DNA from: Bryoerythrophyllum caledonicum
Lineage: Eukaryota; Streptophyta; Bryopsida; Pottiales; Pottiaceae
Assembly: GCA_963971425.1 (NCBI GenBank)
Contig: OZ020525.1
Coordinates: forward strand, 8,105,560-8,169,559
Length of the DNA stretch: 64,000 nt
Direction of reading: 5' to 3'
Shown: positions 30,059 through 64,000 of the stretch, piece by piece
Numbering within the stretch: position 1 is the first letter of the stretch
How the letters are laid out: every line of letters starts with the position of its first letter
Notes under the pieces: model-generated
Seen by the model: the letters and a program-made list of their open reading frames with translations, nothing else
Database searches by the model: none
Told to the model about the DNA's origin: nothing
Translations under genes and position numbers: made by a program

Positions 30059-31864
30059 TGAGAAGAACTAGAACCCTAAAGAACTAGAAGAGAGAAAACT
30101 GATATGAGCTTAAATTGATATGAACTTGGATTAACAAGATGAGTACACAAAAACAACAAGAGGGGTGAGCAATGGCTCGAGGAGATGCATTGCTGAGACT
30201 GAAGAATTCTTCAGTCTCAACCCCTATATGTACCCTAACCTAAAGTAAAAGGGAAGCAAATCGAACAATAAAGTAAAAGAAGTTCAAAAGTAAAAGAAAT
30301 TCTAAAGTAAAAGTAATCTAGAAGGTTCCAGAGGTTATGTCCCAAACATTACCCCCCTCAAGCGACGAGTCTCAAGAGGAGCCCTAGGCTTATTTGAATA
30401 AAGTTGATGAAACTCTTGTACTAATTCCGGCGCGTTTGCAAGATTCTCGATTGGTTCCTATGTCCGTTCATTAATATCATAACCGCTCTAGTGCACCAAA
30501 TACTCCAACTTGCCCCTCCTTTGTTGTGAGTCCTGTACTTTTTCCACCTCGTATTCTTTGTGATTTTCAATTTCAACACTTGGTGGCAGTTCTTGTATTC
30601 TTCCTGGAAAAGACAACTCCCGATAAAGTTCTAAAAGAGAGACATGAAAGAGTGGATGTACATTCACGGAAGCTGGTAGCTCAAGACGATGTGCCACTGA
30701 ATTGATTTGCTTTTGGATGAGGAATGGTCCCAATCTCCAGTAGTCCAACTTGTCACATGGGCGCTTGGTCTTGATATTTTGTCGAAGAAGCGATACTTTA
30801 TTTCCAACTTGAAACTCAAGTGCTTGATTGCAAAATTTGTCTGCAGATGTCTTATAAGACTCTTGGACGGATTGCAGTTGAAGCTTCAAATCACCTTGAA
30901 TTTGCGATAGTTGCTTTGCAAAGTCATCAGTTGTCGAGTTACTATTCGCTGGTGAACTCAACAGATCAGGTTTTGGGTGATAGCCATAGTTGGAATAGCA
31001 TGGCGTTTCCTAAGTTGAAGCATGAAGAGTATTATTATACGCAAACTCTACTAAAGGCAAGTATGCCGTCGAGTTGTCTTACTGGTAGTTGATGCTGCAT
31101 TGTAAATACTGCTCAAGAACTTGATTAACCTGTTCTATTTGACCGTCAGTTTGAGGATGGAAAGCTGAAGAGAGGTTGATATCCACCTTCAATATCTTGA
31201 AAAGAGAACTCCAAAACTTCGATACAAATTGGGTTCTCTGATTAGAAACAACATCGCTTGGTAGACCATGATATCGATACACATTATCAAGAAATAGTCT
31301 TGTTGTGTCGTCACTTGATGAAGACTTCTTGCAAGGGACAAAATGTTCCATCATAGTAACCGATCCACCACAATAAAAATGTTGTCAAATGAATTTGATG
31401 GCAACAAATTTGTAATGAAGTTCATAGACACCAAAGACCAAGGTCCACGCGGAATAGGCAATGGCTATAGGAGTCTATACGGGCGATGCTGAGGATTCTT
31501 AGACCTTGAACAAGTATCACAAGAGGTAACAAAATTCTTCACATCTTTCTACATTTGGAGCCACCAAAAATCTCTAAAAAGGAGTTCCAAAGTCTTGTTG
31601 TATTCAAAATGACCCGTAACTAGGAAGTCATGACGGGATTGAAGAACGCAAAGTTGTGTCGGACCTTCAATGATAAATAGGCGCTCTACAAAATATAAAA
31701 GATCTCCTTCCATCTTAAATTTTTTGTCTTCATCGAGGCGACGCTGGATGTCAAGGGCCACATAATCCTCAATGGTTGTGGTGCGCACTTAGTTGAGGAA
31801 GTCAACATATAGCCCAAAGGCGAAATAATTCCGGCTTCAACAAAGATGCGACGTTTAACTAAAT
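30059..31864 (-). mobile_element. Ty3/Gypsy chromovirus fossil, 3' part with LTR
   Basis: From 3' to 5' on the minus strand: a 290-bp LTR (30059-30348, TG...CA ends TGTTTGGGAC and TTCTTCTCA), a purine tract (GAGGGGGGTAAT) just outside it, a chromodomain (about 30360-30560), the integrase C-terminal part, the integrase core (HPQTDGQIEQVNQVLEQYLQ) and the integrase zinc-binding part (SRHDFLVTGHFEYNKTLELL). The family is a plant or Tcn1-like chromovirus. The coding part is broken, with several breaks. It continues at 63231-64000 beyond a 31.4-kb insertion. It lies within an HSPA12-like gene. Confidence 0.9.
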
Positions 31865-31873
31865 CTGGACTTT

Positions 31874-32608
31874 CAAAAGTCCACATTGGTCAAAGTCCGT
31901 ATTTGATTTGATAATATACCATGCTTCATCGTATAGGGGGAGCACCCAATCCAACGGGCTCTTCCTTGAGATTTAAGTAGATGACTTGAAGCATTAAACA
32001 TGTAACGTCTATCTTGAAACATTAAACATGAAACATGTATTAGAAGTTGATAGTAGTGGAAGCAATTAGAAGAATGAAACAATCGATACAAAGCATAGTA
32101 CATGCATTTTAGACGGAAACATCGGAGGCGCATCCAATCCGGACTGGAAGATTGGGGGAGCACCCGAACCCAGTGAGGAAATAGGGGGAGGACCCGATCT
32201 GAAGTGGGAGACCAGAAGAGCAATCGGTCGGAAGTAAAAGCGTCACACATTCATAGCATACAATCAGTTATAGTAGAATAGAAAGTGTTTGAAAAGGCTT
32301 CATTATTTTTGGATGCAATGTAAGGCAATGGTGAAAATGTGTGTCTTGAAAGTATCACTCTTGTGAATTTCGGATAAAGTCTTTTAGGTACAAGATGAAC
32401 GTTCAAATTCCTCGGACATACAAGGATCAACTGCGTTTGTAGCATCGAGGTTAACCAGTGCTACAATTTGGTCCCGTTTTGGAATTGTCCGTGTCTTCGG
32501 ATTTGCCTTAGTTGACCAAGAGGCGTATACGACGCAGTTACAATCCCAAAGACATGGACGACGACCGGGCTCCGGTACCCACGTCGCTTCCGAGCATCCA
32601 GCATACTT
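31874..32608. other. Left subterminal region of the giant element
   Basis: Non-coding. It opens with the inverted GGACTTT/AAAGTCC motifs (31867-31900). At about 32100-32235 it carries decayed copies of the dyad repeat (GGGGGAGCACCCGAACC, GGGGGAGGACCCGATCTG). The opposite end of the element has an equivalent dyad-repeat region at 62870-63180. Confidence 0.5.
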
Positions 32609-35334
32609 CTACTTGTGCTCCTTTATGGCATTTCTTGGCTCCCATAACTGAATGATAAATTTCCCGTACTCCTCGTGACCTTGCTCATTATTTACAGATG
32701 AACATGCTCTCCCCATCCAGACATGATAAATATCAGGGTCAGAGGGACAGAGGAGGACCCATGATCCCGCTATGATATGCCGCCATGGATTCAAAGCTTC
32801 CTTCGGTCTCTCCTTGAATGACTGTCAAAAAATTCAGGTACCCGATCTTCGGGTGTGACATCCCCATTAGTAATGAGGCACAAGAGAGCTGGAACCGTTG
32901 CTCTCCAATCATGATTTGGCCAAAAGCCTTCTGCCAACACGTCTGGAGTGGGAGGAAGGGATTTATCAAGTTCTTCAAGTATTGCTTTCCAGTAAGCGAT
33001 ATAAGGCGGCATACCGTTCTCCATCCGGCACATTTAACCATCCCTCCCTCCCAGAATGTTATATAAGCGCAAATTCCCGACTAAATCATAGACTTCTTAT
33101 CCACCACTTTTGTAGCCTTCTCTTTGGCCTTGACTTCATTGCCACGTTTAGAAGGCTCCTCGTCTCTCCACAACTGCTTGAAAGGCACTGGCGTTGGAAT
33201 ACCATAAGGTATCATGGGTCTCCGGTCAACATCTTCCTTCCAAAGCCGAACTCCAGGTTGGTTTCTAGAGAACCAATGTGCATCAATTGCATTTTTCTTA
33301 TACCGCATGATGGGCCAACTGTCTTCATCTATGTAGAACTGAAAGAGGTGTTGATCTTTCGTGCCAACAAGTCTGTCACCATTATCACATATATAGCCTT
33401 TCACAAATGATTTGAAATCAGCAACCTCTTGAACAAACTCGGGCATGAAACTCAAATCCTGCGACTTCATCAAGGACAACATCAAATCAGCGACTACATA
33501 GGTATTCTCACTCTTCAACTTCTTGGACAAGTGGCTGAAGTAAGCATCTATATCCTTAGGGGTGTGCCCTACCAACAAGAATCCAACCTGGATTTCCTTG
33601 AACACCCTCCGATAAGTCAACATGGATAAAAACGCGAAGAGATACTGGTTCTTATTATCCTTCGCTGAGTTGTCCAACTGCAAGTACAAATTTGTTGGAA
33701 GAGGGACCACCTGAATGGAGTGGTCGGTATCCACTCGAGGTAGGAGGTCCATACATCTGGACTTCCCTCTTAGCATTGCAGCAAACATCCAGTTTGTCGG
33801 CTTGTAAGGAAAAAGTTTGCCCGTTACACGAATGGGTGGTTCTTCCAGATGCCGAAGCAATTTTGCAATGGATGAAATAATGTAGTTTAAGTCTCCTAGC
33901 CACAAGTCAGTGGAGTAATGAGCATACGCGCCGTCCCCATGACCATGAGTGACCATGCCAGTGACGTTCATTAGAAGTTGTCCAAGAGCTGTAGTGAACT
34001 TCGTGGCAACTCGCATACGTGGGATTACGGTCTTCGCTGTATCCATCTTATTGTGGATTATGCAAAGAATCTCTCCCTTATTGCGCTTGGACTCCTCTCT
34101 CCAGCTATGGTACACAGGCCTACACGAAGCTTGAAGGTTCTGGTGTTGAGTTCGTTGTTTCACAAAAGAAACATATTCCACAGAGCCCTTCACTGACCTG
34201 TTAATAAATTGCTATAGAGTGTCGCAAACGGTGCACTTCGCAAAAGAACTACCTACCGGCATTACCGCAACATTGTTGAAGAGATCCCTCTTCATTCTAC
34301 TAACAGCTGACTGCGATATCATGGGCAACCCCAACTCCGTATTTGTTTGTAACAATGTCCAGAATATATTAATCGGAAACATAGGCAATCCAAGCATTCC
34401 CATGTGTGCAATTCAATGAAGTCATCATACACTGCGAAAGTGAAGAAAATGTTAGCTAAAGAATCCCATGGGACATAGGATCGGACTCCACAGTCCAGGT
34501 GCGCACACGATCTCTCTCCGACTTGCTAAATAGAGTAGCGTGAACACAATGCAATACCTCGTTAGCATCGGCCCGGATCTTTTTCCAACTATGTTCTGTC
34601 GGCAGAAACTTGAGTATGTCCATCCGCCGTGGCACAGTCGACCGCATCTGAAGAGGCATCTGATTAGCGTTCTCATTGATGATTGTTGTAATTGAACCCA
34701 TAGCCTGCACAGTACCAAGGTGGGGACGTTTGATGCTTTTGTTCCCGTGTGTTGATGACATGATGCCCAGTTTATACTAGTCAATATATTCGTGAAATAT
34801 CGACTTTGCAATATCGTGAATCTTGTACCATGCCGTTGCGCAGACATCCCAACCAAGCAATGTGACATATTGTCTTTTCCAAGTGTGGTCCAAGTAACGG
34901 AGTTGACCTCCAACAAATCTAGCATAATCTCGTCGATCGTCGAAACTCTTCAACCAGAACTTCTGCCGGATTAGGAGGGTATCCTCAGGACGGATTAGGT
35001 TAACGCATTGAATAGGGCAACATGACCCCGAAGTGACCGCTTGAATCGCTTCCAGCATAGTCTTCTTAGAGTACGCGGCGAGCTTCTCATCAGTTCGCTT
35101 CCGGCAACAGATAAACCGGTACGGTGCTTTGGGACAACCACCCAGGTGCGCATTCGTGTCCGCTAGTTCTAGAAGCCGAATGAAGTGATCGAGTGTCTCG
35201 CTTAGACCGCGCCCACCTTCGAATTTGCACTCCAAAATTGGCCAGCTCTGATCAGGGTTGTCTACATAGACGGACAGGGGCCCAAAAACAGCGGACGGAC
35301 GAACAGTAGAACGGACGGACAGGATGGACAACAC
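32609..35334 (-). pseudogene. DUF7869-type putative transposase gene
   Basis: Minus-strand reading in several frames, N to C: a Cys-containing segment ending RFVGGQLRYLDHTWKRQY and LLGWDVCATAWYKI (34777-35334); KRPHLGTVQA and FLPTEHSWKKI (34456-34761); SRMKRDL and FAKCTVC (34212-34403); then a 370-codon frame (33081-34193). The last holds IIHNKMD (45-51), HGHGDG (83-88), LQLDNSAKDNKN (171-182) and VGHTPKDIDAYFS (208-220). These match the core of DUF7869 proteins as I recall them, and the spaced Asp residues resemble an RNase-H-like catalytic triad. A C-terminal part at 32609-33041 has DIYHVWMGRA and EEYGKFIIQLWEP. A TAG stop separates FAKCTVCDTL from the 370-codon frame, and introns or frame changes separate the other parts. 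Likely role: mobilising the element that contains it. Confidence 0.6.
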
Positions 35335-35439
35335 TTTTTGGCGGACAGTTGCATGTAAAAAAAATTACAAACCCTAAATCAAATTTTCAACTTACCCCCT
35401 AGTAAAACACGTGTGCACGACACGTCAGACGGCTTTCCA

Positions 35440-36013
35440 CGTCACATCAAGAGGCGGGCGCGTGCCTTCGGACCGCGCGCGCAGCATTTGGGGCCGGGTG
35501 CGTACCAATCTAGACCGGGCGAGTTCATGCAGGGTCGGGCGCCTGCATATCAAGGTCGGGCGCGTACGCGTCAGGGCCAGGCGCGTACCACTCAGGGCCG
35601 GGCGCGTATCCTCAAGGCCAGACGCATGCATATCAGGGCCGGGCACGTACGCGTCAGGGCCGGGCGCGTACCACTCAAGGTCGGGCGCGTACCCCTCAAG
35701 GCCGGGCGCATGCATATCAGGGTCGGGCGCGTACGCATCAGGGCCGAGCGTATACCACTCAGGGCCGGGCGCGTACCCCTCAAGGCGGACGCGGGCATAT
35801 CAGGGTCGGGCGCGTTCGCGTCAGGGCCGGTCGCGTACCACTCAGGGCCGAGTGCGTATCCCTCAAGGCCGGGCGCATGCATATCAGGGCCGGGCGCGTA
35901 CCGTCAAGGTCGGGCACATACTGTTAGGGGCCGGCGCGCAGCGTTACGGGCTGGCGCGTGACCGTTGTGGGTCGCGCGCGCACCTGCCCTATCGGCGCGC
36001 GCAGTTAGGGCCG
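35440..36013 (+). repeat. 21-bp GC-rich satellite, forward orientation
   Basis: Head-to-tail 21-bp units of the form GGGCCGGGCGCGTACCACTCA alternate in a higher-order set of four (endings CGCGTCA, CCACTCA, CCCCTCA, CATATCA), about 84 bp. Because 21 is a multiple of three, several frames stay open; those frames are not genes. The array runs into the assembly gap. Confidence 0.92.
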
Positions 36014-36213
36014 NNNNNNNNNNNNNNNNNNNNNNNNNNNNNNNNNNNNNNNNNNNNNNNNNNNNNNNNNNNNNNNNNNNNNNNNNNNNNNNNNNNNNNN
36101 NNNNNNNNNNNNNNNNNNNNNNNNNNNNNNNNNNNNNNNNNNNNNNNNNNNNNNNNNNNNNNNNNNNNNNNNNNNNNNNNNNNNNNNNNNNNNNNNNNNN
36201 NNNNNNNNNNNNN
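36014..36213. other. Assembly gap of 200 N
   Basis: Exactly 200 ambiguous bases, a conventional placeholder for a gap of unknown size. It lies at the point where the 21-bp satellite changes orientation, so a hard-to-assemble palindromic array is the likely cause. Confidence 0.98.
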
Positions 36214-36430
36214 ATGCGCCCGGCCCTTTACCGCGCGCTCCCGGCCACTCGCGATACGTGAGCGGTCCTCCCCACACGCGCCCGGCCCAACACGATACGC
36301 GCCCGATCCTCTCCTATATGCGCCCGGCCCCTTCAGTGCGCGCCCGGCCCTAAACCGTTCGCGTCCGGCCCCTTTAGTATGAGTCCGGCCCATCTCCGTA
36401 CGCGCCCGCCCCTCTGTCTGCACGCGCACG
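36214..36430 (-). repeat. Same GC-rich satellite family, reverse orientation
   Basis: Units such as TACGCGCCCGGCCC are the reverse complement of the core on the other side of the gap (GGGCCGGGCGCGTA). Units are more diverged than on the left. Together with 35440-36013 this makes a large inverted array centred on the gap. Confidence 0.85.
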
Positions 36431-36678
36431 GCCCTGTTGACGACGTGTCAGCCACGTAGTCGCCTTCGTGGCAGTGGGTAAATTGATTTACCTCGACTCA
36501 TGGTCAAACCAGGGTTGACCCTTATCGGACGGACAACAGCCTCTACCGGATGGACAGCCAGACGGACGGATACTACCGAACGGACTGACGGCCAAACAAC
36601 CCTGGCTCTGATGACTCGTGATGTCACCACGATCCCCAATGAAAACGTCCAACACCGTAACGCCAACGTTCCCCTCCC

Positions 36679-37270
36679 CTAGGAAATATTTTGGAATGGC
36701 TCAGTAGCTAGGGAGCAGTTGACCCTGCCAGTGGCCGCTAGAATACCGTTGTTGTTATACCGCTTTACCACCTCACCCACCGACTCGATCTGAGGTAAAA
36801 AAGGAAGAGGGATTTCGGATTTAGAAGAAGGATCACAGTGCAGATCAATAGGAACATTCTTCGATGGAAGGACTAAGCACTCTGCCATCCAAAGGATTGT
36901 CCTACCAACAGAATCAGCCAGGACGGATATGCCATCCTGCTGTGGGTGCATGAGAAGATAACGGACCTCTAGGATGATGTCAGATATGCTAGTTAGCGTC
37001 AGATTGGCCAGGTGAAGATGAATGTTGACATCAAGCCAGTGACCGGTCGGAACAGCCTCAATGACAACGCCCTCTCCAACCACATCATGACGGGGGTAGA
37101 CAAGGGAGACTGCCTTGCCCGGAATGAATTCGAAGCGCGGCCTTGGGAAAAATTCGTGAAATCAACGGGGGGCGTAGGTGAAGTAGTCATCGATCACGGT
37201 CTGCTCGAACAAACAGTTCCACGCGATTCGGTTATCCTTACGAAATGACAAAAGTAAGTGGTGAAGAAAA
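36679..37270 (-). pseudogene. Second minus-strand ORF of the giant element
   Basis: One minus-strand frame reads RKDNRIAWNCLFEQTVIDDY, then RFEFIPGKAVSLVYPRHDVV, GEGVVIEAVPTGHWLDVNIH and LADSVGRTILWMAECLVLPS, with one in-frame TGA near 37165. Sequences of the type 'L-DAVG-I-W' occur near the C-terminus of several plant transposon proteins (for example in TNP2-type proteins), so I suspect a transposon accessory protein, but the match is weak. It lies upstream of the DUF7869 gene on the same strand, separated by the satellite. Confidence 0.4.
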
Positions 37271-37290
37271 TATGAGTTTAAATTATAGCA

Positions 37291-37930
37291 GTGAGACATG
37301 GAGCACAGCCGGTGAACACCGGCAGATCGAGAGAGCGCCCATCCCCTACTGAGAGATGGAGAGCGCACCCGATGAGCACCGAGAGATCGGGAGCGCATCC
37401 AATTATCACCGAGGAATGGGAGCGCACCAAATCACCACTAGAAGATCGGGAGCGCACGCGATCCCCGAGTCGCGATCGCGAGCACACTCAATCTCCATTG
37501 GAAGATCGGAAAGGCACCTCATCCTCTGAAGGTGATCGGAAGCGCACCCGATCGCCCACATGAGAACGGGAGAGCAATCGATCCCCCGCAAGAGATTGGA
37601 GGCGCACCCGATCCCCCACATGAGATCAGGAGAGCAATCGATCCCCCAAAAGAGATCGAAGGCGCACCCGATCCCCCACATGAGATCGGGAGCGCACCCA
37701 ATCCCCCAAAAGAGATCGGAGGCGCACTCGATCCCCCACACAAGAACAAGAGCGCACCCAATCGCCCACATGAAAACGGGAGAGCAATCGATCCCCGCAA
37801 GAGATCGGAGGCGCACCCGATCCCCCTCACGAGAACGGGAGCGCACTCAATCCCTCACAAGAGATCAGAGGCACCCCGATCCCGCGTAGGAGATTTGGAG
37901 CCTGACTCCTCTTCATTGCTAGATCGGGTG
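37291..37930. repeat. 30-bp array of GATCGGG...CCCGATC dyads
   Basis: About 20 units of 30 bp, each built on GATCGGGAGCGCACCCGATC followed by a CCCCACAT- or CCAAAAGA-type spacer. The core is an inverted repeat able to form a short stem. The long open frames on both strands (up to 146 codons) come from the 30-bp period and are not genes. Confidence 0.9.
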
Positions 37931-39110
37931 CCTGCCCGATTTCAGAATTTCTAGAACTGCTTTAAACGTATGGAAATATAGATACGTATGGATATACGGG
38001 TACGAATCTACGATAGCAAACCGAGTTCATGTTACAAACGTCTATGGACAAACCCGTGAGTCATACGGTTTGCTCCCGCACGAGATTGATCAAGAAGATT
38101 GAATGAGAAGAGATTGAGCAAGAAGATGTCACGGAGACAATCGAACAGACATCCATGAATTTAATGCATGCTGAGGGCCGAGTGCCAAAAAAGGACCATA
38201 TCTTAAATCGTGAAGTGAGTAACGCCTTCTTGCTTTGAATCAGAGCTGGATGCTACAGTATGAAGCGGCCAACTACAGCAGTAAAGAGTGATGAAAGCAA
38301 CCAACCACAACCAACTACAGCAGCGAAGAATTACTAGAGCAATCTCTACGCTTTAGTGTTCGACGCTCGCCGACTACCACGGTCATGGTCTTCAGTCTCC
38401 AAATTCTTCGCTTGGGCACTTCATAGTCATCAACTTCCGCGCTCAATCTCATCACATTCAATACTAACAGCACGCACAATATCTAACACATAGTTTAGAA
38501 CTCGCTCACAGACTGCAACCACATAAGAACTTCTAACGCGAAATGACAGCAGCCTAGTCTTCGAGAAATAGTGCGGGAATCTAAATTCTGTATTGAACTC
38601 CCATGTTGGCGGGAATAAAAATCATCATGACTTCCAACCCAAAGAGAGTGGTCACGTCGCTCTCAATAGCATAAATGATGGAAGACCTACACAGTAACCA
38701 ACATCATCTTCCTTTGTCCCTGAACACGACGGGGAAAAATTAGTTACACTGAGTAAAACATAATCAACCAGTATAGTTTAACTTGCAAAGGACCAATTGT
38801 CCCTGTTGGGGACAATTTCGATTTCGGGCATGTACCTAAAATTCGGAAAAAAACCCTTTCCAATAGAAATCAAATTCCTAGATTGTACTTGGTAAGAGCT
38901 TCATGGAGGTACTTTTTGTATTATCTTTGGATTCATGGTTTGAAAGTTAGTAGGACTCAAATTAAAAATAGGGACTTTTGGCAGCTCCAAAAGTTTTGCT
39001 AAAAGTGTCTATTGACAAGGGATTTTTCATACATAATATAGAGAACGTTACCTTCTTAGAGAATGACAGAAAACAATTCTTTTCTTTAGTTAAAAAAAAA
39101 ATGTAAACTG
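37931..39110. other. Non-coding stretch with a TTAA-element relative
   Basis: No gene recognised. At 38760-39110 the text (CATGGTTTGAAAGTTAG, then CAGCTCCAAAA) parallels 43020-43340, marking a diverged fragment of the longer TTAA-element variant found there. Confidence 0.5.
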
Positions 39111-40090
39111 AAGTCAAACATTTTAATTGTATTCTTACTTTTCCTACTTTTTACCTTTTAAACTTTTTACTTTTTAGACTTCCTACTCGTTCAACTATTT
39201 ACTTTTGAACTTTTAACTTTTTATTTATTATAATACTATTCTAATTTTTACCTTTTCAACTAATACTTTTTCAACTTCTTACTTTTACAAACTTTTTAAC
39301 CTTTTTACCTTTTCACCATTTTTTCAACTTTTTACTTTTCATTTCTTTACTTTCTCTCACTCTTACTTTTTATAACCCTTACTTTTCCTAACCTTTACTT
39401 TTACAATCCATTACATATTTTACCCATATTTTTTGAACTTTTACTTCTTCAATCTCTTATTTTTTCTAACCCTTACTTTCCAAGTCCCTTACTTTTTCTA
39501 AACTTTACTTTTTAAAACCCTTTCCTTATCAATCCCTTACTTTATATACTTTTACTTCTTATTCTCTTACTTTTTCTAAGCCTTTCTTTTTCATTCCTTT
39601 TCTTTTTCAACCCTTACTTTTCAAATCCCTTGTCTTTTCATGAATTTTGATTTCCAAATGTCTCCTTTCTCAAATGTTATCTTCTTGAATCTATTACTTT
39701 TTTAGTACTTCAAATTTTAAGCACCTTTTCAAAAAAATACTTTTGAAAAATATTAACTTTTTCAATGTTTACTATTCCAAATGTTAAAGGTACATTTTTC
39801 AAACATATACTTCGTAAAATGTTTCATGTTTCTATTGTATATTTTTCCAAATGAAATTCTTTACAAATGTCTCGTTTTTAATTGTGTATTTATTTAAATG
39901 TTTATTTCTTCAATTGTTACCATTTTCAAATGTTTTCATTTTCAAATGTTTATACTTTCAATTGTTTTCATTTTCAAATGTTTCCATTTTCAAATGTTTA
40001 AAGTTGCCAATTCACACCTTTCAAATCTAACTTTTTATTTTTCCAATCTTCTATTTTCAAATATTTCGTATTTTTGCAATTCCACTTTTA
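39110..40090. repeat. T-rich low-complexity tract (TTTACTTTT units)
   Basis: Irregular units such as CTTTTTACTTTT and CCTTACTTTTTC, then TTTTCAAATGTTT, dominate about 1 kb on the plus strand. No tandem period is exact. The 131-codon frame at 39898-40293 reflects this composition (Phe/Ile/Ser) and is not supported as a gene. Confidence 0.75.
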
Positions 40091-40519
40091 TTCCATATCT
40101 AGGTTCTATTTACTCTCAATCATTTATTTGCCAAATCAATTTTTGGTGCAATTTCACCTTCATTCCATATCTAAATTCTATTTTATCCAAATATTGTTTT
40201 ATTCCGAATGTACTTAAATCTTTGTCGCTTCTTATACTCAAAATGTACACAATATCTTCTTCTAATCTTGACACACTAAATGTGCACAAGTGAAAAAATT
40301 CATATTGCAATCTTAAGTGGAATTCACAAACAGTGTTGTACTTGACATTTAGTGTATTGATTTGTCACTACACTAATTGCCCAATTCACAATTAGTGTAC
40401 AGGTTCGCTTTTAGTGTAAACTACACTAAAAGTGATTTTTAGTGTAGTGGCAGTTTTGGAGTGTTTTATCTTGGGAAAACGCCGATCCTTTATGGGTTAA
40501 TGTAAGTATCAAGTCACTT

Positions 40520-42810
40520 GGGTAGGGTTTCTAGGTCTAGGATTTAGGGTCTAGGATCCATGATTGAGGGTTTAGGGTCGAAGGATTTCAAGGTTACGGG
40601 ATGCTTGGACTATCATGTATTTCTTTTCAAATTTTTTCCTTCATCCAAAATTTAAATTATATTAATTTGGGAGGTGAATCTCAATCAATTTAGAACCTCG
40701 AAACCATAATACGCAAAGATCGGCAACTTCCTTTATTTGTGCCCGAATGAAAAAAACCGTTTCTTGTGTGATTGTGATTGTGAGAAAAAATCCATGATTG
40801 CTAGTTAATAAAAATGGGAGATACCCTTGTTTAAAAAGAGGCTCTGTGTGCTAAAAAAGAAAATACCTTTGCTTGTGTTCCAAAAAAAAAAACCTAACAT
40901 TGCAATTGTACATCAAAAACAATGATATGATACCTTTCCAACAAGTAAAATAATGTACATATATAGAGGTAAATGCTTGTTTTGTTTTTCTTGTTAAATG
41001 ATAGCGTAAGAAATACCAAATTCAACCAAATTGATTTCATATTTTTCCATAATGTAAAGTATTAAATTTCATATTTTTCATATTGTAAATTTCTCCCCCT
41101 ATCCAAAATGTAAATTATTTAAATTTGGGAGATGAACTGCAATCTATTTAGATCCTCGAAGCATAATACACAAAGATCGGCCACTACCATAATAATGGTT
41201 TGTGTGAATAAAGAAAATCGTTGATTGTGTGCTTGAACAAAGAAAACCTTTCATTGTTAAAACAAAAAAACCTTGGCTTATTTTTTTAAAATGCTTTTTG
41301 TGCGTAAAAAGAAACCCCCTTTGCTTGACTGCTTGTTCTTTTGTAGCGATACCGTAAGAAATACCGAATCCAACCAAAGTGATTTCATAATTTTCCAATG
41401 AAAATTGAATTAGATATGACTTCTCGATTGAGGCGGTGGTAATGAGATAAGAGTCGTATGGATTTACCCCCGTTTTTAAAGGCTTTGGGATAAATATGTG
41501 GTGTAAAAATGAAAAACATTTGCTTGTGTGCGTAAAAATAAATTATCTTTGCTTGTATAAAAAAAATTGAAGGGCCACTAGGGTAGGGTTTATGGGTCTA
41601 AGGTATAGGGTCAAGGGTATTCGGTCCGCGGTTTATGGTCAAGATTTCGGGTCCAAGGTTTAGAGTCCAGGGATTCGGGTCCAAGTTTAGGATCTATGGT
41701 TTTGGGTCCAAGGTTTAGGGTCTATGGTTTTAGATCCAGGGTTGAGGGTCTATGGTTTAGGATCCAGGGTTTAGAGTCTGGGGTTTTGGGTCCAGGGTTT
41801 AGGGTTTAGGGTTTTGGGTCCAAGTTTTAGGGTCTATGGTTTTTGGATTAGGGTTTAGGATCTCTGGTTTTTGGGTCAGAGTTTAGGGCATAAGTATGCT
41901 AAGGTGGTACGAATAAACTATCACAAACCGATTTTTTCCATGTCACAACTTCTCCTTCGTGTCACATGCCCAATTTGCTTCGGATTTTAGATGTTGGTCT
42001 ACAAAATGTGATTCCTGACTTCCATGCCATCACACACATCAAAAAAATTCACGAAATCGGTCTACAGTTCAATGAAAAGAAGTATATTTGTAATTACTAT
42101 ATACTTGTCACAATTTTATAAAGTATACAAATATACTTCTTGTGGGAGACCAGAAGTTCACAATTCTACAAAACTTTGAGTTTACATGCAAAACATGTTC
42201 TTTTCAACCATTCCAAATGAAAAATCATGATCCGAGACTTTAATTTGCTTGTAACAGCAAAAAACGGGCTGATTGTCAAAAATGCTTATAATGGGGGTTA
42301 AATGTTGATTTTTGCTCCAAATTCTTATTGAGCCTTCTTTAGCATACAAAAATCTATCTTAAAATATAAAGTGTTTTCAAAAATATTTTTTTTTCCATCA
42401 TTTTCTTGAAAACTTAGTTTTCGGTGCCTTGAAAAAATTGATATACTGCGTAGTATTTTTGGTATATTTTCAGTCTCTGTAGTATGCAGTATTATCATCT
42501 CGGGAAAGGGTTCGGCCACTTATAGAGCAACATGTGTTATGACAACACAAAGTCCCAAAAATCAGCACTTTGTTCAAGAGATTTTTAGTTCACCTCACAT
42601 TTTGTTGGCCACGATTTCTCCACACCTAAAAAATGGACGGTTGGCATTCAACAACAATTTAACAAAGGGCTTCAAAACTAACATACTATGCAGTATATTA
42701 TTTTTGCCCATTTTGTACCCCCCTTAGCATACTTATGCCCTTTAGGGTCAATGGTTTTGGATCCAGGGTATAGGGTCCGAGGATTTGAGGGTTTTGGGAT
42801 GCTTGTTCTT
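40520..42810. repeat. Degenerate TTTAGGG-like repeats and three copies of a longer unit
   Basis: Variants of GGGTTTAGGGTC are abundant at 40520-40620, 41580-41890 and 42741-42790; TTTAGGG is the plant telomere unit, here strongly diverged. A longer unit (reading CAAAATTTAAAT, then CCTCGAA and AAGATCGGCCACTACC) occurs near 40640, 41095 and 42840. The third copy is displaced by the 855-bp MITE. This is an interstitial repeat, not a chromosome end. Confidence 0.7.
41886..42740. mobile_element. 855-bp MITE with TTTA flanks
   Basis: The left end GGGCATAAGTATGCTAAGG is repeated inverted at the right end (CCTTAGCATACTTATGCCC, finishing at 42740), and TTTA flanks both sides (41882-41885 and 42741-42744). 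It interrupts a TTTAGGG-like tract. No ORF is convincing. A PIF/Harbinger-like origin is possible, but a 4-bp flank would be unusual for it. Confidence 0.85.
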
Positions 42811-47790: not shown

Positions 47791-47797
47791 AGGTGAG

Positions 47798-50680: not shown

Positions 50681-50689
50681 ACGTTGATA

Positions 50690-52154: not shown

Positions 52155-52194
52155 TAATGTTTTATTTGGATACTCTAAAATTCTGGTATATTGA

Positions 52195-52375
52195 GATTGA
52201 GTGTGCCCCTGATCTCTTTGACCGGATCGGGTGCGCTCCCGATCTCGCCGACGGGACCGGGTTTGCCTTCGTTGTCGTCTATCAGATCTGTTGCGCTCCG
52301 GATCTTCCAGATCGGATTGAGCGCGCCCCCGATCTCATGGTCCGGATTTGGTGTGCACCCAATCTTCTAGTCCGA
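52195..52375. repeat. Dyad repeats inside an apparent intron
   Basis: Five variants of the GATC...GATC dyad (for example GATCGGGTGCGCTCCCGATC near 52225) lie between a possible donor at about 52154 and an acceptor GCGCAG at 52442-52447. Similar dyads occur in the intron at 53452-53680 (53512-53590), and in the spacer before cargo ORF 3. Confidence 0.75.
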
Positions 52376-54659
52376 TCTTTTTAGGCTTTGGATATGATTG
52401 TCGACATTTGTATGTCCGTCCACTGAATGTATGTCCTTTGCGCAGCCAATTGCCGCCGATCCTCGCAATGTATCTCCATCTTCAGTACCCACCCAAGACA
52501 CCCTCCACTCCGTGAAGGATATGCACGTCGATATGTTGTCAAGGCATGGAATTGAGGTTGGCGGAGCTAGGCAAGGCAAAGCAAGGGAGGAGAGAATGGA
52601 AGAAAGAAGGGTGAAAGAGTCGGATGAGGAACGGGAGGTACTGGAGGCGGAAGAGAGGTGGTATAACAGGCCTGAATCCCCACCAAGGGAGCCAATTTGT
52701 ATTCGGTTCGATCATGAAAGGGCAATGAGAGTCCGAGGTGTCGGTTCTAAAACAAGACTAACGGTGAGGATTGTACATGTCCCAACAGCAATTACTGCTC
52801 TCGCAGATGTGGAGTCTCCTTTGTCTGCGCCGGCTTTGATGTAGGTAGATCAGTCCCATTAGTCTTCATCTGACGACGCCACTGATGGTCACGTGCCCGA
52901 CCCTAGGCAAGGCCCAACCGAAGTGGAGGTGGTGGTTGTCGGCGCACTTACTGACCTACGGTCTCTGCAAGTACCTCCTACTCCGGGGCGTAATCTTTCA
53001 TTGACGGATTCAACTTGCGAATGGGTAGTCGATGAAGGGGCTTACAAAGGCATGTTCGATGATGAATTGAAGCCTCTTAGCCCCGCTACCATTGCATAGG
53101 AGTCTACCGTTGCGGAAGTCCATGATGGGTTAATCTCTGAAAGAGCGGTGATTCAAGCTGATGTCTCGTCTTCCTTGAAGTGTTCCTCACTTGCTCGAGG
53201 AAATCCCCTTCTCCCAGGTAGGTATCTCATGCCTTTGGTTGTTTGTTCATTTTCCTCTGAGTCGTATATTCATCGGTCCTGATCTGCAGTTGGTCATCTA
53301 GGATCCACTGGTGCGGATGCGAAAAAAGATCTTCAAGTCGTTGCTCCTAGTGGAAGCGTGTCGAAGCTTGCCACAGCTTTGACCGAAAGCGGAAGCATTT
53401 CAAAGCGTCATTCGTCCAATAAACGTGCCGATCCGGCGTCATTAGTTGATGGTGAGATTCCACGCTTATGTTTCATTCTGAGTATTTCGTGTTGCAATTT
53501 CTTCTTGTTGGGATCGGGGGCGTGCTCGATCTTCCAGTGGTGATCGGGGGTGCGCCCGATATTTCTGTGGAGATCGGGTGCTTGCTCGGTCCTCTACTTG
53601 AGACGCCCTTCTCAAAAGCCCATTTCCATGTTTTGTCTGATAGAGTATGGCTCACCTTTGGATTTTGCTTCTTGTTTCAGGTGGTCTACTTCAACCAGCT
53701 AAGCCCCGAGCACCTCGGAAATCCATAGTAAAGGTACCGAGGTACACTGTCATCGTGGACTTAAATGGATTTTTAGTTCACAAGCCTGGCTTCAACGGCA
53801 TCTGCATTCCTAGACCCGACGGCGGGGATTGCTATTTTGCGTGCCCAAATTTGCGAACCGCGAGCCACGAGCCTAGGATTGCGAGCCTAGAAATAAAAAA
53901 GTTGTGTATTTTTTACAAAAGTAAAAGTTAAAGAGAAGCATAAAGTTAGGAAAAATATGATTTTAAAAAAAAAATTAGAAAAAAAATGAAGTTAAAAGTA
54001 AAAGTTCAAGAGAAGGGGCCCTATAGCCGTGGAAATTGATGAACCGTTGTCATTTATATTAACCTAGTCCTTTGTTATTAGGGCTTTGGGTTATAAATGG
54101 AGGTGATCTTGACTGCTAAAATGGTTTAGGCACCCTATGGCCGTGGGTGTCTGAACCTTGATTCAAAATAAATTGGTAAACCTATGGATACACCATAGGT
54201 TTATAATCATTATATCACACTCCACATAAATTTTTATTGGAGAGTGATTTAACATAAAGATTTCCTCACGCTCATATTATAGATAGCCTCCGGTAGATGT
54301 TTCCCCACGTTTGTCATAGATAGTCTTGGGCAATAGAATAGACTCTTAAGTAGAATGATGGGCTTCATTATTCAAAGCTACCTTGTATTGAACTCTGTAG
54401 AGCAATTCTTGAGAGGCTTGACAGTTCAAGTTATGTTGTGGTTTAGAGTCATATTGTGGGACTTAGAAATTGTACTTTAAATTGATGCAGCTAGAAGTAG
54501 TGAGTATATAAGGGTGGAGAGAGCAGTAGGTATTCATGAGCGTTATTCCAAAAGTCCTAAGAGTTGCGTAAGTGGATCATAGAGTCTTAGAAGTTTTGTT
54601 TATTGATATGGATCTGCTTGATTGTTAGAATCATTTTGATTTGCTAGAAATCAGGTAGA

Positions 54660-55245
54660 GGTGACACAGATGGAGGAGATAAGTCTGAATGTGGACATCA
54701 CAAAGCACATTTGCTTGGGAAATGGTGAAAACTCAAAACTACATTTTTTACTACACTATGACTTTTAATGCAACTAGAGGTGGGTGATAACACTGACATC
54801 ACCTTCAATGCGATTGGTAGTTTGGTGAAGGCATACAAGTGTGTCCTTTTGATGTACTCTCAAGTATTTGAAACAATGTTCAAGAATAATATGAGGGAAG
54901 CAATCACTTTGGAGTTTGATGTGCTGGACATTTCAATTAAAGAACTGAAGTTCTTCATGGTGATCTTGTATATTCCTTGGAGGAATTTACTTAGATGGAC
55001 CCGTTGAGTTGCTAATTATGGCGCCAGAGTTTCAGAAAGCTGTTGATATGCTATTTGATGAGCTACTTGTTGCATGCATAAAGTATGAAGCGTGGGCACT
55101 GGAGGCCACAGTCATTGCCGAAATGAAAGACCATTTGACGCGAGAAAGTGCAATGTGTATTGGCGCCAGAGTACGACAATGACCCAGAACGCGAATGGAA
55201 TGTGGATTTGCAAGAGCTACATCAAGCATTACATTCAACACCACT
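54660..55245 (+). pseudogene. BTB/POZ gene copy 1 (captured)
   Basis: The frame at 54768-55007 reads DITFNAIGSLVKAYKCVLLM, SQVFETMFKNNMREAITLEF and KELKFFMVILYIPW. That is the typical BTB pattern V-AHK-VL-SxVFxxMFxxxMxE followed by a helix and an FL-FLY-like segment. A continuation at about 55010-55130 (text translating as FDELLVACIKYE) looks like the next BTB helices. Stops and frame changes show decay. BTB proteins of this kind usually act as CUL3 substrate adaptors. Lying inside TIRs, it resembles a host gene fragment captured by the transposon. Confidence 0.6.
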
Positions 55246-56129
55246 AGGCAAGGTCGATAAAGGGAATGGACAGTGGTAGTGGTTTTACACCCGCATTTTT
55301 AAGCAAACTCCGAGAAGAGAATATGGATTTGTTTAAAAATGCGGGCAATTGAAATGATATGCAATTGCAACATCCCATGGGGCCATGGCGCAGTCTGAGT
55401 CAGGAGAGATATGCTCCGCCATCAGCCTGATGAAGTCATACAAATATTTGTGAAATAAATAAACAAAGAATGATGTTTGAGGAAATAACAAGAACTCCAA
55501 TTAACTTACTCAATCCAATTTTTTTTGTAACTTTGCAGATTGTTTGATCATAATAAAAATGCCAGGTAGTCCATAAACATGAAGAATCAACAATATACAT
55601 AAACATGAAAGAATCAACAAGTGCAGCGATTGTTTGATCGTGAAGAAGACGTCAGGGAAGACGTCAAATCTAAATGAAACAAAGCCTCCCAAGAGCCTCC
55701 ATCAGACAAAACAAATGCAAAAAATCAACAATTGTCAATGATCAATTCAAAAAGCACCTTGATAGGGCCGCCGATAGCGGCATTCCAATTGATGAGCTTT
55801 GTGAATTGCAGATGTTAAGTTGCTCTACTAGAAATTGAGAAATAAACTCTAAAATGAATTGTAAACGCAATTGTCCTATTCTTGTAGAGTTGGAGGGATT
55901 CAATAAAAAAAGGAGAGTTGAGGGAGATTGGATCATATGGTTAGTTTTAGATTTCTTAGTCTCTTTCAATAGATCTTTGTCTTTCTGAATTTTAGAGTCT
56001 TAAGATTGGTTGTGGATCAATGCTAGGGACGAGAGTGTTGAGGAGGCTGTGAGAGATGTGGTTTCAATTCTTTATAGCTATTGTAATTGTTGGCACTTGA
56101 GATTTGGATATAGTCAAACAATAGGATTC

Positions 56130-56640
56130 AAGATGAAGCAGACATGATAGAAAATTCCACGCTAAATTTGGACATCTCAGAGCTAATTAGCGTGGGAAGG
56201 GAGATTATTTGAAAGCTTCCATTTTGATGAAATTACAAGGTCCTCATCTAATTGGACATTGAAGATAATATAGATGTAACATTTTATATAATCATAAGAT
56301 TGGTGAAGGCACACAAGGAAGTTTTCTCGATGTATTTGATGGTATTTAGAGCAATGGTGAAACACAAGATGGAGGAAATAATTGCTTCCATGGACGGTCT
56401 ATAGCTGCTCATTGTGTTGTATGTTCTTGATGGAATATACTTTGATTGGACTAGACAAATTGCAGAAAATGCCAACGGAGTTTTCAGGAAGATATTGATG
56501 ACCATTTTCATGAACTCTTTGATGCATGCATTAAGTATGGAGTGAGGTCGCTGAAGGCCACGATAATCTCCGGCATGTGAATTGACGTTGATCAATGACC
56601 ATGACCTTCAATATTAGTGGAAAAGATGACTACAAGCAAT
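56130..56640 (+). pseudogene. BTB/POZ gene copy 2 (diverged duplicate)
   Basis: Nucleotide order parallels copy 1: AATTTGGACATCTCAGAGC, then TTGGTGAAGGCACACAAGG, TTTAGAGCAATGGTGAAAC and GATGCATGCATTAAGTATGG. One frame reads LVKAHKEVFSMYLMVFRAMV, again the BTB AHK...VF signature. It is more decayed than copy 1, about 1.5 kb downstream, in the same orientation. The pair implies a duplication inside the transposon. Confidence 0.5.
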
Positions 56641-56839
56641 ACTTTGTCAATCACAAGCACTTGCACCTTTCATTTTGGACAAAAGAAATAGACACAAACA
56701 ATGCATTTGCGAGCCCTTATTTGAATCAAATTTGAGTAGATAAGGATTTGGAGTTAGCTAAATGGCGTGGTTGATTGATAAGATTTGATAAGATTCAATA
56801 CAATATCATGCAATATTCTTCAAAATCATCATACTTGTA

Positions 56840-58140
56840 AAAAGGGTGCCGACATCGGCACCCCCTAAGACGCTCTTCCCATATCCTTTGAGAGGAGTCT
56901 CGAAGGCAGGACACATTGACACTCATCCAAAAGATCCTTGCTATCTGTAAAAAGGAAATCTTTAGAGGGAGTGCCGACATCGGCAATCCATAAGAGGGCC
57001 TATTTTATCTTCAAAAAGGGATCCTCTAAAGGGGATGCCGACATCGGCAACCCCCTAGAATTCATATCCACGCTCTGGAAATTTTTGAGAGAATTCCAAA
57101 ATGATATTGAACTTTATCATCCAACACTTTAAGAACAAGTTATCCACGGATGAAGTAGTGAATTCCAAGACTTCATCCGGAGATAACTTATTCTTTGAGT
57201 GTTGGATGATAAAGTGTGATACCATTCTGGAATTCTCTCAAAATTTTCTAGAGTGTGAATGTAAATTCCAGAGGGTGCCGACATCGGCACTCCCTTTTGG
57301 AAGTTCCATTTAAAAGATTGGATAGGCCTTCTTGTAGAGTGCCGATGTCGGCACCCCCTTTAGAGGTTCTCATTTTAAACAAAAGAAGAACCCTCTAGTG
57401 GAGTGCCGATGTCGGCACTCCTTTTGGAGGTTCTCTTTTTAACAATAGAAAAGATCTTTTTGAGGGATGTTAAATTTTAATGTCAAAATTCTTTTTGAAG
57501 GTTGCTTTTAATAAAAATGTAAGGGCGTCCTAGGGGTGCCGATGTCGGCACCTCCTTTAGAGGTCTCAATTTTCCTTTTCAAAGATGTACAGATCCTCTA
57601 GAGGAGTGCCGTTGTCGACACCCCTCTAAAGATTGATTTTTTAAAATGAGAAAGCTCCTTTAGACGAGTGCCGATATCGGCACTACCTTTGGAGGTCTCT
57701 TTTCTAAATATAGGAGGAGCCTTCTAGACGAGTGTCGGTATTGACATCCACTTTGGAGGTTTTATTTTTAAATATAAGAAGGATCTATAGAGGAGTGCCG
57801 ATGTTTGGCAATCCCATTGGAGGTTCTCTTTCTTAAAATATGAAGGGCCTTCTAGTGGAGTGCCAATGTCCGTACCTTCCCTAAAGATTCTTTTTTAAAA
57901 ATATAGGAAAGGTGTTTTAGAGGGTGTTAATGTCAGCATTCCATTTCTAGGTTTTTTTTCTAGACATGCAAATGATCCTTTAGTTTGATGCCGATGTCGG
58001 CATCCTCTTCAGATGGTTTTTTTTCATATGTAGGATGGATTCTCTTGTAGAGTGCCGATGTTTGCACCTCCTTTGGAGGTTTTTTTTTTTAAATATAGGA
58101 GAGATTCTGTAGAAGGGTGCCGATGTTGGCACCTCCATAG
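56840..58140. repeat. Array of GTGCCGATGTCGGCAC palindromes
   Basis: About 16 copies of a 16-bp perfect or near-perfect palindrome (GTGCCGACATCGGCAC or GTGCCGATGTCGGCAC) occur every 60-70 bp. In many units outer arms extend the dyad (CCTC...GGAG before, CTCC...GGAGG after). Two or three more lie at 58720-58840. Spacers are AT-rich and share text such as TTTTTAAATATAGGA. This is not a CRISPR array: units are palindromic, diverged and not separated by unique spacers of constant length. Confidence 0.9.
57068..57258. repeat. About 190-nt near-perfect hairpin
   Basis: Two arms of about 90 bp (57068-57158 and 57168-57258) are reverse complements at about 85-90 percent: for example TTTATCATCCAACACTTTAAG on the left pairs with its counterpart around 57200, and GAGAGAATTCCA pairs with TGGAATTCTCTC. 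The loop is only a few bases. A transcript would fold into a long stem like those that feed small-RNA pathways. It could equally be a tiny foldback element. It sits within the palindrome array. Confidence 0.75.
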
Positions 58141-58350
58141 TGGTTGGAGCGTGCAAGGATTAGCTCGGAAATTATTTTTATGTTCAAAAAATATTCTTGA
58201 GAAGACCCTTGCTTATGAGGAACTTGTCCTTGTCTTGGTCAAGTTCAAGCAAATGTTCTACCCTAGTATTTGAAATGAAATAACCACTTTTAGATATCTG
58301 CGTTGTTTTGAAGTAATGGGCATTTTTATTAAACTGAGAAGCTTTAATAA

Positions 58351-59330
58351 TTGGGCCTTCATCTAGGAGAAGCGTTTCCCAGGACAAGCAATGAACCCAA
58401 TAATGTTTTCATCTTCAAGATGGTAGAGATAGAACTTGAGATCAGGGTTGATTTAATTAAGACTATGCAACTTGGAGATGACTTAGAGGATGCGCGGATG
58501 ATGTTTAACCATGTCAAAAGTGTCAAGTCTTGGACCACTATGGCTGCCTATGTGTACAATTCTATTTATTGTCTCGTGATGACAATTGCGGTTTTTGATA
58601 TGTACTCTAAAATGTGGTATTTCAGCAAGTGTTCTGGAGATGATGCAATGCAATTTCAAGTAGGCATGACAATTCAAATCCAAATCTCAAAGAATTGATG
58701 TCCGACATCAAGATTCAACAACGGGATGCCGACATCAATATTACTTTAGAGTAGAATCGATTTCGGCATCCCGTTGTTAGTACTACACTATTCATTGTTA
58801 GAAGTCACTCTCAAAGGAGTGCCGACATCGGCACTTTCTTTTGGCGGTTGTCATACTTATCTAATTATACTACCTTATGCCGCTACTAGCTATATTTTGT
58901 AACCTAAGTTCTTCTATCAGTTCGCCATGCCAAACGTTGTACTAATCATAATTATTGATCAAACGATCTATCGGAAGCTGTTCAAACAAGTCAAGATGTT
59001 GTCATATATTTTGACGGAATTGGTGCACATCAAGTGGTTCCAACAGTCAGGCAAAAAATTATCATATGTATATTGCGGCTATGGATGATATGGTCTGGGT
59101 ATGCATAGGGATTGTTGCCTATTACCAATATCTGAAAGGTGAAAAAACTAGGCAACGATCTTGGGAAGGATTAACTCACTCTTTGCATTGCCTATCGCAT
59201 CATTCAACGCTCTGGAAATCATGCTGCACTCGCCAATAAGCTCGGTGCAGACGAGTTCTGTACCTGCAATCTTTACTTAGAAGGTGAGGAAATTTTTGTA
59301 TCTCTAAAAAGAAAAATAGTTTCTTCTGCA
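58351..59330 (+). pseudogene. Transposase-like remnants of the 7.2-kb transposon
   Basis: One frame (58351-58698) reads FIFKMVEIELEIRVDLIKTM, DDLEDARMMFNHVKSVKSWT and YCLVMTIAVFDM. I recall a similar 'MF-H...VK-WTTMA-HVY...Y-VMTIA-CDMQ' segment in large plant DNA-transposon proteins related to MULE transposases. Further pieces (WFQQSGKKLSYVYCGYG near 59030; ADEFCTCNLYLEG near 59250) may belong to the same protein. The reading is broken in several places. If right, this was the element's own transposase; alternatively another element was captured. Confidence 0.4.
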
Positions 59331-59339
59331 GGATTAGAA

Positions 59340-60930
59340 TTTGACTAGCATCACCCCGACAAAATAAGGGCATCACGCTTAATGATGAACGCTTGTCGTA
59401 TTGATCCAATGATTGTTGACCTAACAATTGAAGAGCGACCACAACACTCTACGTGCTCTTTTGAAGCAACTGAAGTACTTCCATCGGTGTCACCTGCACT
59501 TTATTTCCCGATTCAATACGCCAAAGTTGTGCAAGAGATTGTCTGTGATGAGAAGCAATGGCACATTGGAAGGCTTCCTAAGACATCCAGTAAAACATGT
59601 TTATTTCTATAGGCCGATATAAGGAAGTAGTGTGTGGGCAGGATTGTGCAGCACGGAAGAAGTACATCTGCCTCAATATACATGGGACTGATGGACAATT
59701 TCAAGAAATTGAGAATGAAAAGAATGCAATTCTTCTTTTGCAACAACGACATTCATTGTTGTGTTGTGGACACACGACAAAGCTGGATCCAATCTAAGCT
59801 ACATATCCCAGACTTCTAGCCAGTTGAGATGGGAACAAACTAGAGCATGATGGAGATATTTGCCCTCAAAAATGTCGAGTACCGTCGCACTGAGCGTAAG
59901 GCGTTGTCCCCTCAAAACTTATATTGTGTCACTCCAATTCTATATAAAAGGCGGTGAGACTAAAAGGGCCACTTCCACCGTTTGTACTAGCTCTTGTCCA
60001 TCACTCGTGAGTCTATACTTCGTAAAAATGACGGGACAAAGGGAGATTGAGATTGGAGATTTACACTTCCCTTGCAAGTATATAGAAGTCAAGTTTAATA
60101 TCTCACTCTTCTAATGTCCCCCTCCAAGACTCTTTCTAATTTTTCCAGTTCCAGTAACTACATTCTGGAGTTGCGAATTGTCCCTAAACTATCCTTCATA
60201 TCTCCCCACTTTTCTCCCTTATCTTTGGTTCTAACCACTTACTATTTCTCCTCTACCAATAGTTTCATACTTTAAATCATTTGCTCTCCCTTGCACTAGC
60301 TTTACCGCCAATACACCTTTTAAATCTCCCAAATTTATCGTGCCCCGGGTCATCATCCACCAAATTGAATCGTCTATCTCATAATCGTCTACCTCTAAAC
60401 TGCTAATCCTAACTCTAAATCTTTGTACTACAGTACCCTAAATTCAACCAATATTTTCAGATGTCCCACTCTCATTGTCCCCTACGCTCCATCTCTAAAA
60501 CCTTCCAAACTATACTTGCCATCTCCTTAAATCGCACTATTCCCACCCCCTCCGATCCCCAAATTCCTAGAACCACTACCACTCTCCAAGTTCTAAAACC
60601 TTCCTCCCCCTACTTCGTCCTCTCTCCCTCCCCTCTCTCCCTCTCACTGTCTTTTTATACATACTAAAATCATGCTCCAAAGCTTTATAACCTCAGAAAT
60701 TCTATCTTCCCTTCATTGTAGAACCCTAGACTCCACGGTCATAAGTCTATTTTTATAAAAAAAAATCAACAATATTGTCATTTTTAGATCCTTCTTGCAT
60801 ACAATTTCTCCACCCTTCCCCACGGTAATAGGTCCATTGATGTAATGCATTTAATCAATGTCATTCTAAAAAAACCTTAAAACTTTTACTTTTTTATGCC
60901 CTTTTCAAATTAAGAACTCAATTTGTGCCA
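59340..60930. other. Right part of the TIR transposon, no clear gene
   Basis: Frames at 59382-59612 and 59597-59797 show no domain I recognise. From about 60120 to 60660 the plus strand is C/T-rich, giving a Ser/Pro/Leu frame (60461-60667) that is not supported as a gene. Confidence 0.4.
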
Positions 60931-62009
60931 ACAAGGCTCGCAATCCTAGGCTCGCAGCTCGCGGCTCGCAAAATTACGCACGCAAAATAGCTTGGTCCAC
61001 CCGACGGCGGTCATTTTCTAGAGTGGTTGCACAGTAAGGCTAATGTGGTCATATGGAGTTGTGCGATGTCCCGTAGTGTGGATGACATGGTCACAACACT
61101 TCTACGTGATACTAAACTGACGCGAGATCAGCTTATAGTCTTGTCGCAAGATGATACGACGAAGTCTACTTATCCTAGAGTGGACCATCCTACCAAGAGG
61201 TACATGCTGAAGGACCTCTCTAAACTTGCAAGGGACCATGAGATCATCGACCCTAGCCTGACATTGCTTATTGACGATAGTCCTGAGAATAATCTCCTGA
61301 ATGACGAGTTCAGTGCTATTCACCCACCTACGTGGGCTAGTGATATGGATGACAACTTTCTCCGCCACACCCTGCGTCCGTGGCTGTTGAGTATGATAGC
61401 ATCATGTTGTTCTGTACCTCAATATGTGCGGGCCAATCCCCTTTCTGGATTTACTAATGGTTCTGTTCTTAGACGCTCTAAAGTAGGTGAATCTATAGTA
61501 AAAGGATGCTCTCAATTGTGGAATCAACAAGCTCGTAGATTTATTTCACCTGAATCTTCTTCGTCGTGAACTAAAGTGGTCTAGTACATTTTAATTTTAC
61601 CACGCCGTTTTTGTATACCTGTAGGGCTTGTAAGTTGTTACGCTCTTTTACGCTATTGAGAGCGCCATGTTATAGTTGTTTTGTTATGATTCCCCCCAAT
61701 ATTTTGTACATTATCTTGTCTATTGTGTATAACATTCTTTCTTTTGTTATGTTCACAGCGACGCCGTGACTACTGGAAGAAAGTTGTTGTATTGTCTGTC
61801 AAGGGATTGCTTTGTTTCTAGCCATACCATAACCACAACCCACAACGATTTGATCCGAAGAACATAATAGTTTGGCCTGGTCTTGTAGAATTCTTCTAAA
61901 TCCTTCTGAGGTCCTTCCGTGTGGGTATATGGTCGTCCATGCAAGCCAAGCGCGTGAGAAAGGTTCTTCAAATCATCCTCCCCAAAGATATATGAACAAA
62001 ACTCATTTT

Positions 62010-62869: not shown

Positions 62870-63180
62870 GAGATCAGGAGCTCGCCCTGGTCTAGATGTA
62901 TACTAGATGAGGACCTTCCCGGATCACGACATAACATGGATCGGGAGCTCGCCCGGTTAGACTTAACCTGGATGAGGACCTTCCCGAGTCTCAACGTAAC
63001 CTGGATTGGGAGCTTGCCCGGTTTCAGCGTCACGTGGATGAGACCTCCCCGGGTCACGCGGTAACTTTGATCAGGAGCTCGCCCGGTCTGGACATAACAT
63101 GGTTCGGGACCTCCCTTTTTTGTTTATGAAAATTTTATCTCCAGCTCTCCATGTAACCTACATCGGGAGCTCTCTGGGTC
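62870..63180. repeat. Right subterminal dyad repeats of the giant element
   Basis: About four to five units of 60-66 bp carry GATCGGGAGCTCGCCCGGT variants (62938, 63003, 63068, 63150), followed by GATGAGGACCTTCCCG text. They lie just inside the inverted end of the giant element and mirror the decayed dyads at 32100-32235. Confidence 0.8.
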
Positions 63181-63230
63181 TCGTAGTAAAGTCCGGATTT
63201 CAAAGTCTACATTTCATTCTAAAGTCCATT

Positions 63231-64000
63231 TTTACTTAAATATCGCATAAAGTTATACATTGTTGATCAAATTTTGATTCTCCAGCCTTGGGCGCAAGAT
63301 ATGATCTCCTCAATAATGCATTGGATAGTCCTTGTTGCTTCCCCGGTCAATAGGTGATGACAAAGTCAAATCGTGATAGTAACATATTCCATTGAGCTTG
63401 ACGCCAATTCAAAACCCGAGATGACATGAAATACTCCAAGTTCTTGTGATATGTATATACAGTCACCGGATGGGCGGCTCTTTCAAGGAAGTGACGCCAC
63501 TCTTGAAAAGAATCCACGATAGCTAGAAGTTCCTTGTCGTGGATCTCATAATTAATCTCCGCAGCAAAAAACTTCTGAGAGTAGAACGCAATTGGATGGA
63601 GCTTTCTGTCTTCGCCCATTTGCGAAAGTACAACTCCCAAAGCAAAATCCGAGGCATCAGTTTCCAAATAGAATGCCTTCATAAAATCCGGATGAATAAA
63701 GATTGGCACGTTAGTAAACACCGTCTTAAGATCTTCAAATTCCTTTTATGCTAAAAGGCCCCATTCAAGCTTGTCCTTTCATGTTAACTAAGTGAGCGCA
63801 GTAGCCACTTGTGAATAATTCTTAATGAAGATCCGATAGAAGTTAACAAAGCCAAGAAAACATTGTACGTCTCTAACCGTCTTTGGAACTTCCCACGACA
63901 CGATAGCTTCCACCTTCTATGGGTCCATCTTCAAACCTTCTGTAGATGCGATGAATTCTAAAAACTTCATCTCAGTTTTATGAAATAAACACTTCTCCGG
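63231..64000 (-). mobile_element. Ty3/Gypsy chromovirus fossil, RT/RNase H part
   Basis: The minus strand encodes the RNase H domain (63347-63721: FYLETDASDFALGVVLSQMG, HPIAFYSQKFFAAEINYEIH, LLAIVDSFQEWRHFL). It is preceded, running off the right edge, by the end of the reverse transcriptase. Family and strand are the same as the fossil at 30059-31864. Its pol text stops at the very point where that fossil's integrase text begins, so the two are one element parted by a 31.4-kb insertion. It is broken, with a few breaks in this part. The 5' LTR and gag would lie outside the window. Confidence 0.88.

Follow-up and report, generated by a model that had tools for sequence, protein, structure and literature searches.

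A 64,000-nucleotide stretch of contig OZ020525.1 of the moss Bryoerythrophyllum caledonicum (assembly GCA_963971425.1, positions 8,105,560-8,169,559; hereafter the window) contains a 31,403-bp block that splits one chromovirus in two. We consider it probable, at about 0.82, that this block (31846-63248, plus strand) is a giant multi-gene cut-and-paste DNA transposon with a DDD transposase of the DUF7869 type, most likely a member or close relative of Sola. An initial annotation, made from the letters of the window, had already proposed a self-contained giant DNA transposon. This proposal is borne out: the block, whose family we term family A, has moved as a single unit in the past, as revealed by its multicopy ends, 4-bp target-site duplications and empty sites; its gene order is shared by colinear copies.

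Ends, target sites and genomic copies

The two flanks of the block belong to one minus-strand chromovirus, as previously annotated. On the left lies its 3' part (30025-31845), with integrase, chromodomain and a repeat resembling a long terminal repeat (LTR); on the right, its reverse transcriptase/RNase H part (63253-64000) runs past the window end. The translated flanks gave RNase H homology on the right and an integrase zinc finger, SH3_Tf2-1 and a chromodomain on the left, all on the minus strand. In addition, a 276-bp LTR-like repeat with 90% identity (window 30025-30300 and C14:8172033-8172307) encloses both halves. When the block is subtracted, the chromovirus measures ∼5.3 kb, a size that fits a single chromovirus.

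Inverted ends were present as described, but not at the positions first assigned: TGGACTTT and AAAGTCCA lie inside the true ends, which begin with ATGCGA and are located 8 bp (left) and 7 bp (right) further out. In the loci read, family-A copies were alike for ∼8 bp beyond the former left end and diverged after that. Because similarity among the other copies extends to ATGCGAC, the termini were placed at 31846 and 63248. The left terminal inverted repeat is thus ATGCGACGTTTAACTAAATCTGGACTTT (31846-31873, plus strand) and the right one, as read inward, is ATGCGATATTTAAGTAAAAATGGACTTT (63221-63248, minus strand), with 23 of 28 positions matching when counted by eye. The comparison of copies led us to reject TGGACTTT as a terminus, together with the 11-bp flanking duplication (9 of 11 positions matching) proposed with it, whose bases belong to the terminal repeat. 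On the basis of end alignment and empty sites, the duplication is the 4-bp AAAG at 31842-31845 (left) and 63249-63252 (right). The subterminal clusters of GGACTTT were also recovered, since 5 of the 15 occurrences of GGACTTT/AAAGTCC in the window fall within 65 bp of a terminus.

A genome search with the same ends had been suggested as a check on mobility. Using a 147-bp left-end probe against the 437-Mb genome, we scored 40 matches of 226 candidates; 20 of these 40 left ends had an inward-facing right end within 70 kb, whereas the reversed-orientation control gave none. Paired ends spanned from 5.6 kb up to 63.6 kb, seven of them 17.9-22.0 kb. Target-site duplications were then compared in 19 family-A end pairs, comprising 18 of the 20 orientation-tested pairs (C841, at the C846 site, and C2:3.099 were left out) and, from outside that set, E3, one of five copies fetched at length (E1-E5). 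Exact duplications, of 4 bp and not of the 11 bp anticipated, were found in 15 pairs: AAAG, TGAA, CAAC, ATGT, ATGC, ATAC, CTTA, AGGA, AATG, CCTA, CCTT, ACAT, AGAA, AACT and CAAG. The other four pairs were imperfect, namely ACCT/ACAT (E5, C852), CCTA/CCTT, ACGT/ATGT and GCCT/ACAT (C846).

Empty sites were sought with a probe in which the two chromovirus flanks were joined by a single AAAG, and 40 matches of 163 candidates were scored. All six related chromoviruses chosen, which were selected for crossing the junction without length difference, aligned across it, gapless there and with one AAAG-like copy. The longer and more distant matches had ∼20 additional bases somewhere within the probe.

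Two observations on the distribution of copies should be mentioned. Family-A copies C852, C846, C841 and C2:3.17 Mb occupy one shared insertion site, reflecting segmental duplication or an alternative haplotype; as C852, C846 and C2:3.17 have identical flanks, they look like one insertion spread by segmental duplication. Furthermore, contig C1 (65.18 Mb), which may be a sex chromosome, is enriched in family-A ends (19 of 40 left and 27 of 42 right ends, versus 14.9% of the genome).

Core element, cargo and nested insertions

The full 31 kb had been taken as the size of the mobile unit, a value that is rejected as the native size by nested insertions and by the spans of other copies. Both ends were present in E3, E4 and E5 (31.1, 39.9 and 26.4 kb, respectively), and for E1 and E2 the right end was not seen within the stretch fetched. 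In total, 19,510 of the 31,403 bp in the window element could be aligned to at least one of the five copies and 18,935 bp to at least two. Thus, the shared core is ∼19.5 kb and the remainder is mostly nested insertions, which puts the native element at ∼20 kb.

One of these is a hAT-like insertion (35253-36604, plus strand) with ends CAGGGTTG and CAACCCTG and an 8-bp duplication GCTCTGAT; none of the five other copies showed sequence aligning to it. It holds a 200-N scaffold gap (36014-36213), and the same GCTCTGAT on both sides supports the assembly join. Further insertions include one with GGGCATAAG inverted ends (approximately 41889-42740) and smaller pieces. The block also holds a fragment related to family B, the second DUF7869 family described below (43490-44614, interrupted at 43631-44386). 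A 7.2-kb element resembling Mutator-like elements (MULEs) and carrying a BTB domain lies within a phosphatase gene (approximately 53826-60998, plus strand); it has 58-bp inverted arms and a 12-bp duplication ACCCGACGGCGG and is absent from E3, E4 and E5. The dense dyad repeats noted at the outset, ∼30 bp long and of the GATCGGGAGCGCACCCGATC type, were seen within the element at 37292-37901, 45705-47173 and 52187-52360.

Of the candidate cargo genes, the phosphatase gene stands and the BTB gene does not, because the latter sits in the nested MULE-like element. The phosphatase, of the NIF/FCP1 type, is encoded on the plus strand in two parts: an open frame at 53644-53825, assigned by eye, and a second part at 60999-61569 that matches PF03031 (E 2e-14) and shows a third-position excess (chi-square 13.6). 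Both exons (53644-53825 and from 60999) are retained in E3, E4 and E5. Another gene kept in the copies, here called gene 2 (47333-50679, plus strand), has several exons, a 'GGQH' motif in one of them and a third-position excess in 47896-48345. It is the divergent partner of the transposase gene and was found upstream and divergent at 50 of the 79 related transposase loci counted; these were the 79 of 110 transposase matches that were used (20 close and 59 sister), and of at least 151 gene-2 matches only a part was used, partial and weak ones having been left out before counting.

The DUF7869 gene and a second family

The presence of a DUF7869 gene in the block was confirmed by its Pfam domain PF25273 (33288-33710, minus strand; E 1e-36). 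The main part of the gene, defined by tblastn with moss and database proteins and by open frames, extends over 32423-35252 on the minus strand and is broken by stops and frame changes in this copy. A possible N-terminal part lies beyond the hAT-like insertion (36679-37161, minus strand), where an open frame is colinear in the copies. The predicted structure of a homologue of the protein resembles an RNase H-type transposase and shows a DDD pattern. Pfam scans of the window element, covering its frames apart from plus frame 3 over 38004-47002 and any minus frame beyond 59802, revealed no other transposase domain. DUF7869 gave 3602 first-look candidates in this genome, of which 150 were scored.

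Family B was examined at three loci with 1077-aa open DUF7869 frames. These elements are 12.6-13.0 kb long and ∼99-100% alike, and family B is younger than family A. Their 27-bp inverted ends are identical in copies a and b and carry one substitution in the third, and the target-site duplications (AAAC, TGTA and TGAA) are exact in all three. Thus, intact DUF7869 genes and 4-bp duplications occur together in family B as well, providing an independent tie between the two. In copy a, the only one with frames listed, a 1371-aa frame is divergent from the transposase; a homologue of this partner models as a ParB fold (predicted structure), and sequence comparison gave no detectable homology between it and gene 2 of family A. 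It should be noted that each of the three copies contains a 200-N gap, which suggests that something inside the element resists assembly. Outside the giant block, window positions 12265-13215 and 14099-15034 are ∼84% identical to part of a family-B element.

Classification and alternative explanations

In the most probable scenario, the DUF7869 protein would act as the transposase, recognizing the ATGCGA terminal repeats and possibly binding the subterminal GGACTTT boxes; it would then excise the whole unit, which would be inserted where the target is cut with a 4-bp stagger. The divergently transcribed gene 2 would serve as an integral second gene of the element, to which family A adds the phosphatase gene.

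According to an excerpt of PMC10741241, Sola elements encode DDD transposases, generate 4-bp duplications, are mostly 2-9 kb with some >15 kb, and occur in Physcomitrella; 'Physcomitrella Sola1' is also listed in PMC9033089. The predicted DDD pattern and the 4-bp duplication fit Sola, already reported from a moss, and an affiliation with Sola is the most likely one, as judged by shared traits. Such traits include 4-bp duplications in both families (15 of 19 in family A and 3 of 3 in family B), terminal inverted repeats within Sola's 11-1124 bp range and a moss host as for Sola1; a DDD transposase is predicted from the model of a homologue. An 'undescribed class' of transposon was hence too strong a claim, even if the dimensions and the gene complement are out of the ordinary: compared with the usual 2-9 kb of Sola (same excerpt of PMC10741241), the element is larger, and it carries the phosphatase gene as well as gene 2, which is conserved and divergently oriented. 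Among the titles listed for the open-licence literature on DUF7869, on giant transposons in mosses, on giant DNA transposons with cargo genes in plants and on Sola in moss, none described a comparable element.

Other known systems fit less well. hAT elements generate 8-bp duplications, CACTA elements have CACTA ends and a 3-bp duplication, and Helitrons have neither terminal inverted repeats nor a duplication; in contrast, family A has ATGCGA ends, terminal inverted repeats and a 4-bp duplication. Starships, Teratorn and Polintons rely on tyrosine recombinases, piggyBac or polymerase-integrase systems, and none of these domains, nor a MULE transposase domain, was found in the Pfam-scanned frames of the window element. 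Like it, fungal Starships, Teratorn and Polintons are DNA elements of very large size that carry additional genes (PMC6431247, in excerpt). Mutator-like elements, including Pack-MULEs, are likewise plant DNA transposons able to carry gene fragments, but their duplications are 7-12 bp (PMC10741241, in excerpt).

We regard as rather unlikely that these elements form a distinct, unnamed two-component superfamily, distantly related to Sola, in which the large partner (ParB-fold in family B) is required for moving 12-40 kb units. The predicted DDD pattern, the 4-bp duplication and the moss host are all consistent with Sola, and the partners of the two families lack detectable homology. A more specific version appears doubtful: the partner would be obligatory and divergent, in family B combining a ParB/sulfiredoxin fold with what may be a methyltransferase-like domain, and it would clamp or mark the DNA so that such units can be synapsed and moved.

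It is improbable that the block is a non-autonomous or composite unit mobilized in trans by another transposase, with the DUF7869 gene as a passenger. The broken gene in the window copy would agree with this; however, the 3' end of the gene lies ∼0.7-5.8 kb inside the left end in five other copies, and the shortest copy (5.6 kb, C11), though internally deleted, has kept both ends and a DUF7869 match. Family B, with intact frames, terminal repeats and 4-bp duplications of its own, and the lack of another transposase domain in the scanned frames also argue against a passenger. Finally, an assembly artefact or segmental duplication instead of transposition, which the 200-N gap and the insertion site common to four copies might suggest, is hardly credible given the many loci with differing flanks and differing 4-bp duplications, the empty sites and the position of the gap in a nested insertion bounded by GCTCTGAT.

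Plant cut-and-paste elements are usually small. In this moss, ∼20-kb multi-gene units have moved repeatedly, with clean 4-bp duplications still visible. Our data suggest a transposase function for a Pfam family that so far has no name beyond 'domain of unknown function'. The conserved partner gene travelling with the transposase makes the joining of such distant ends testable, and experiments would be practicable in family B, whose copies are nearly identical.
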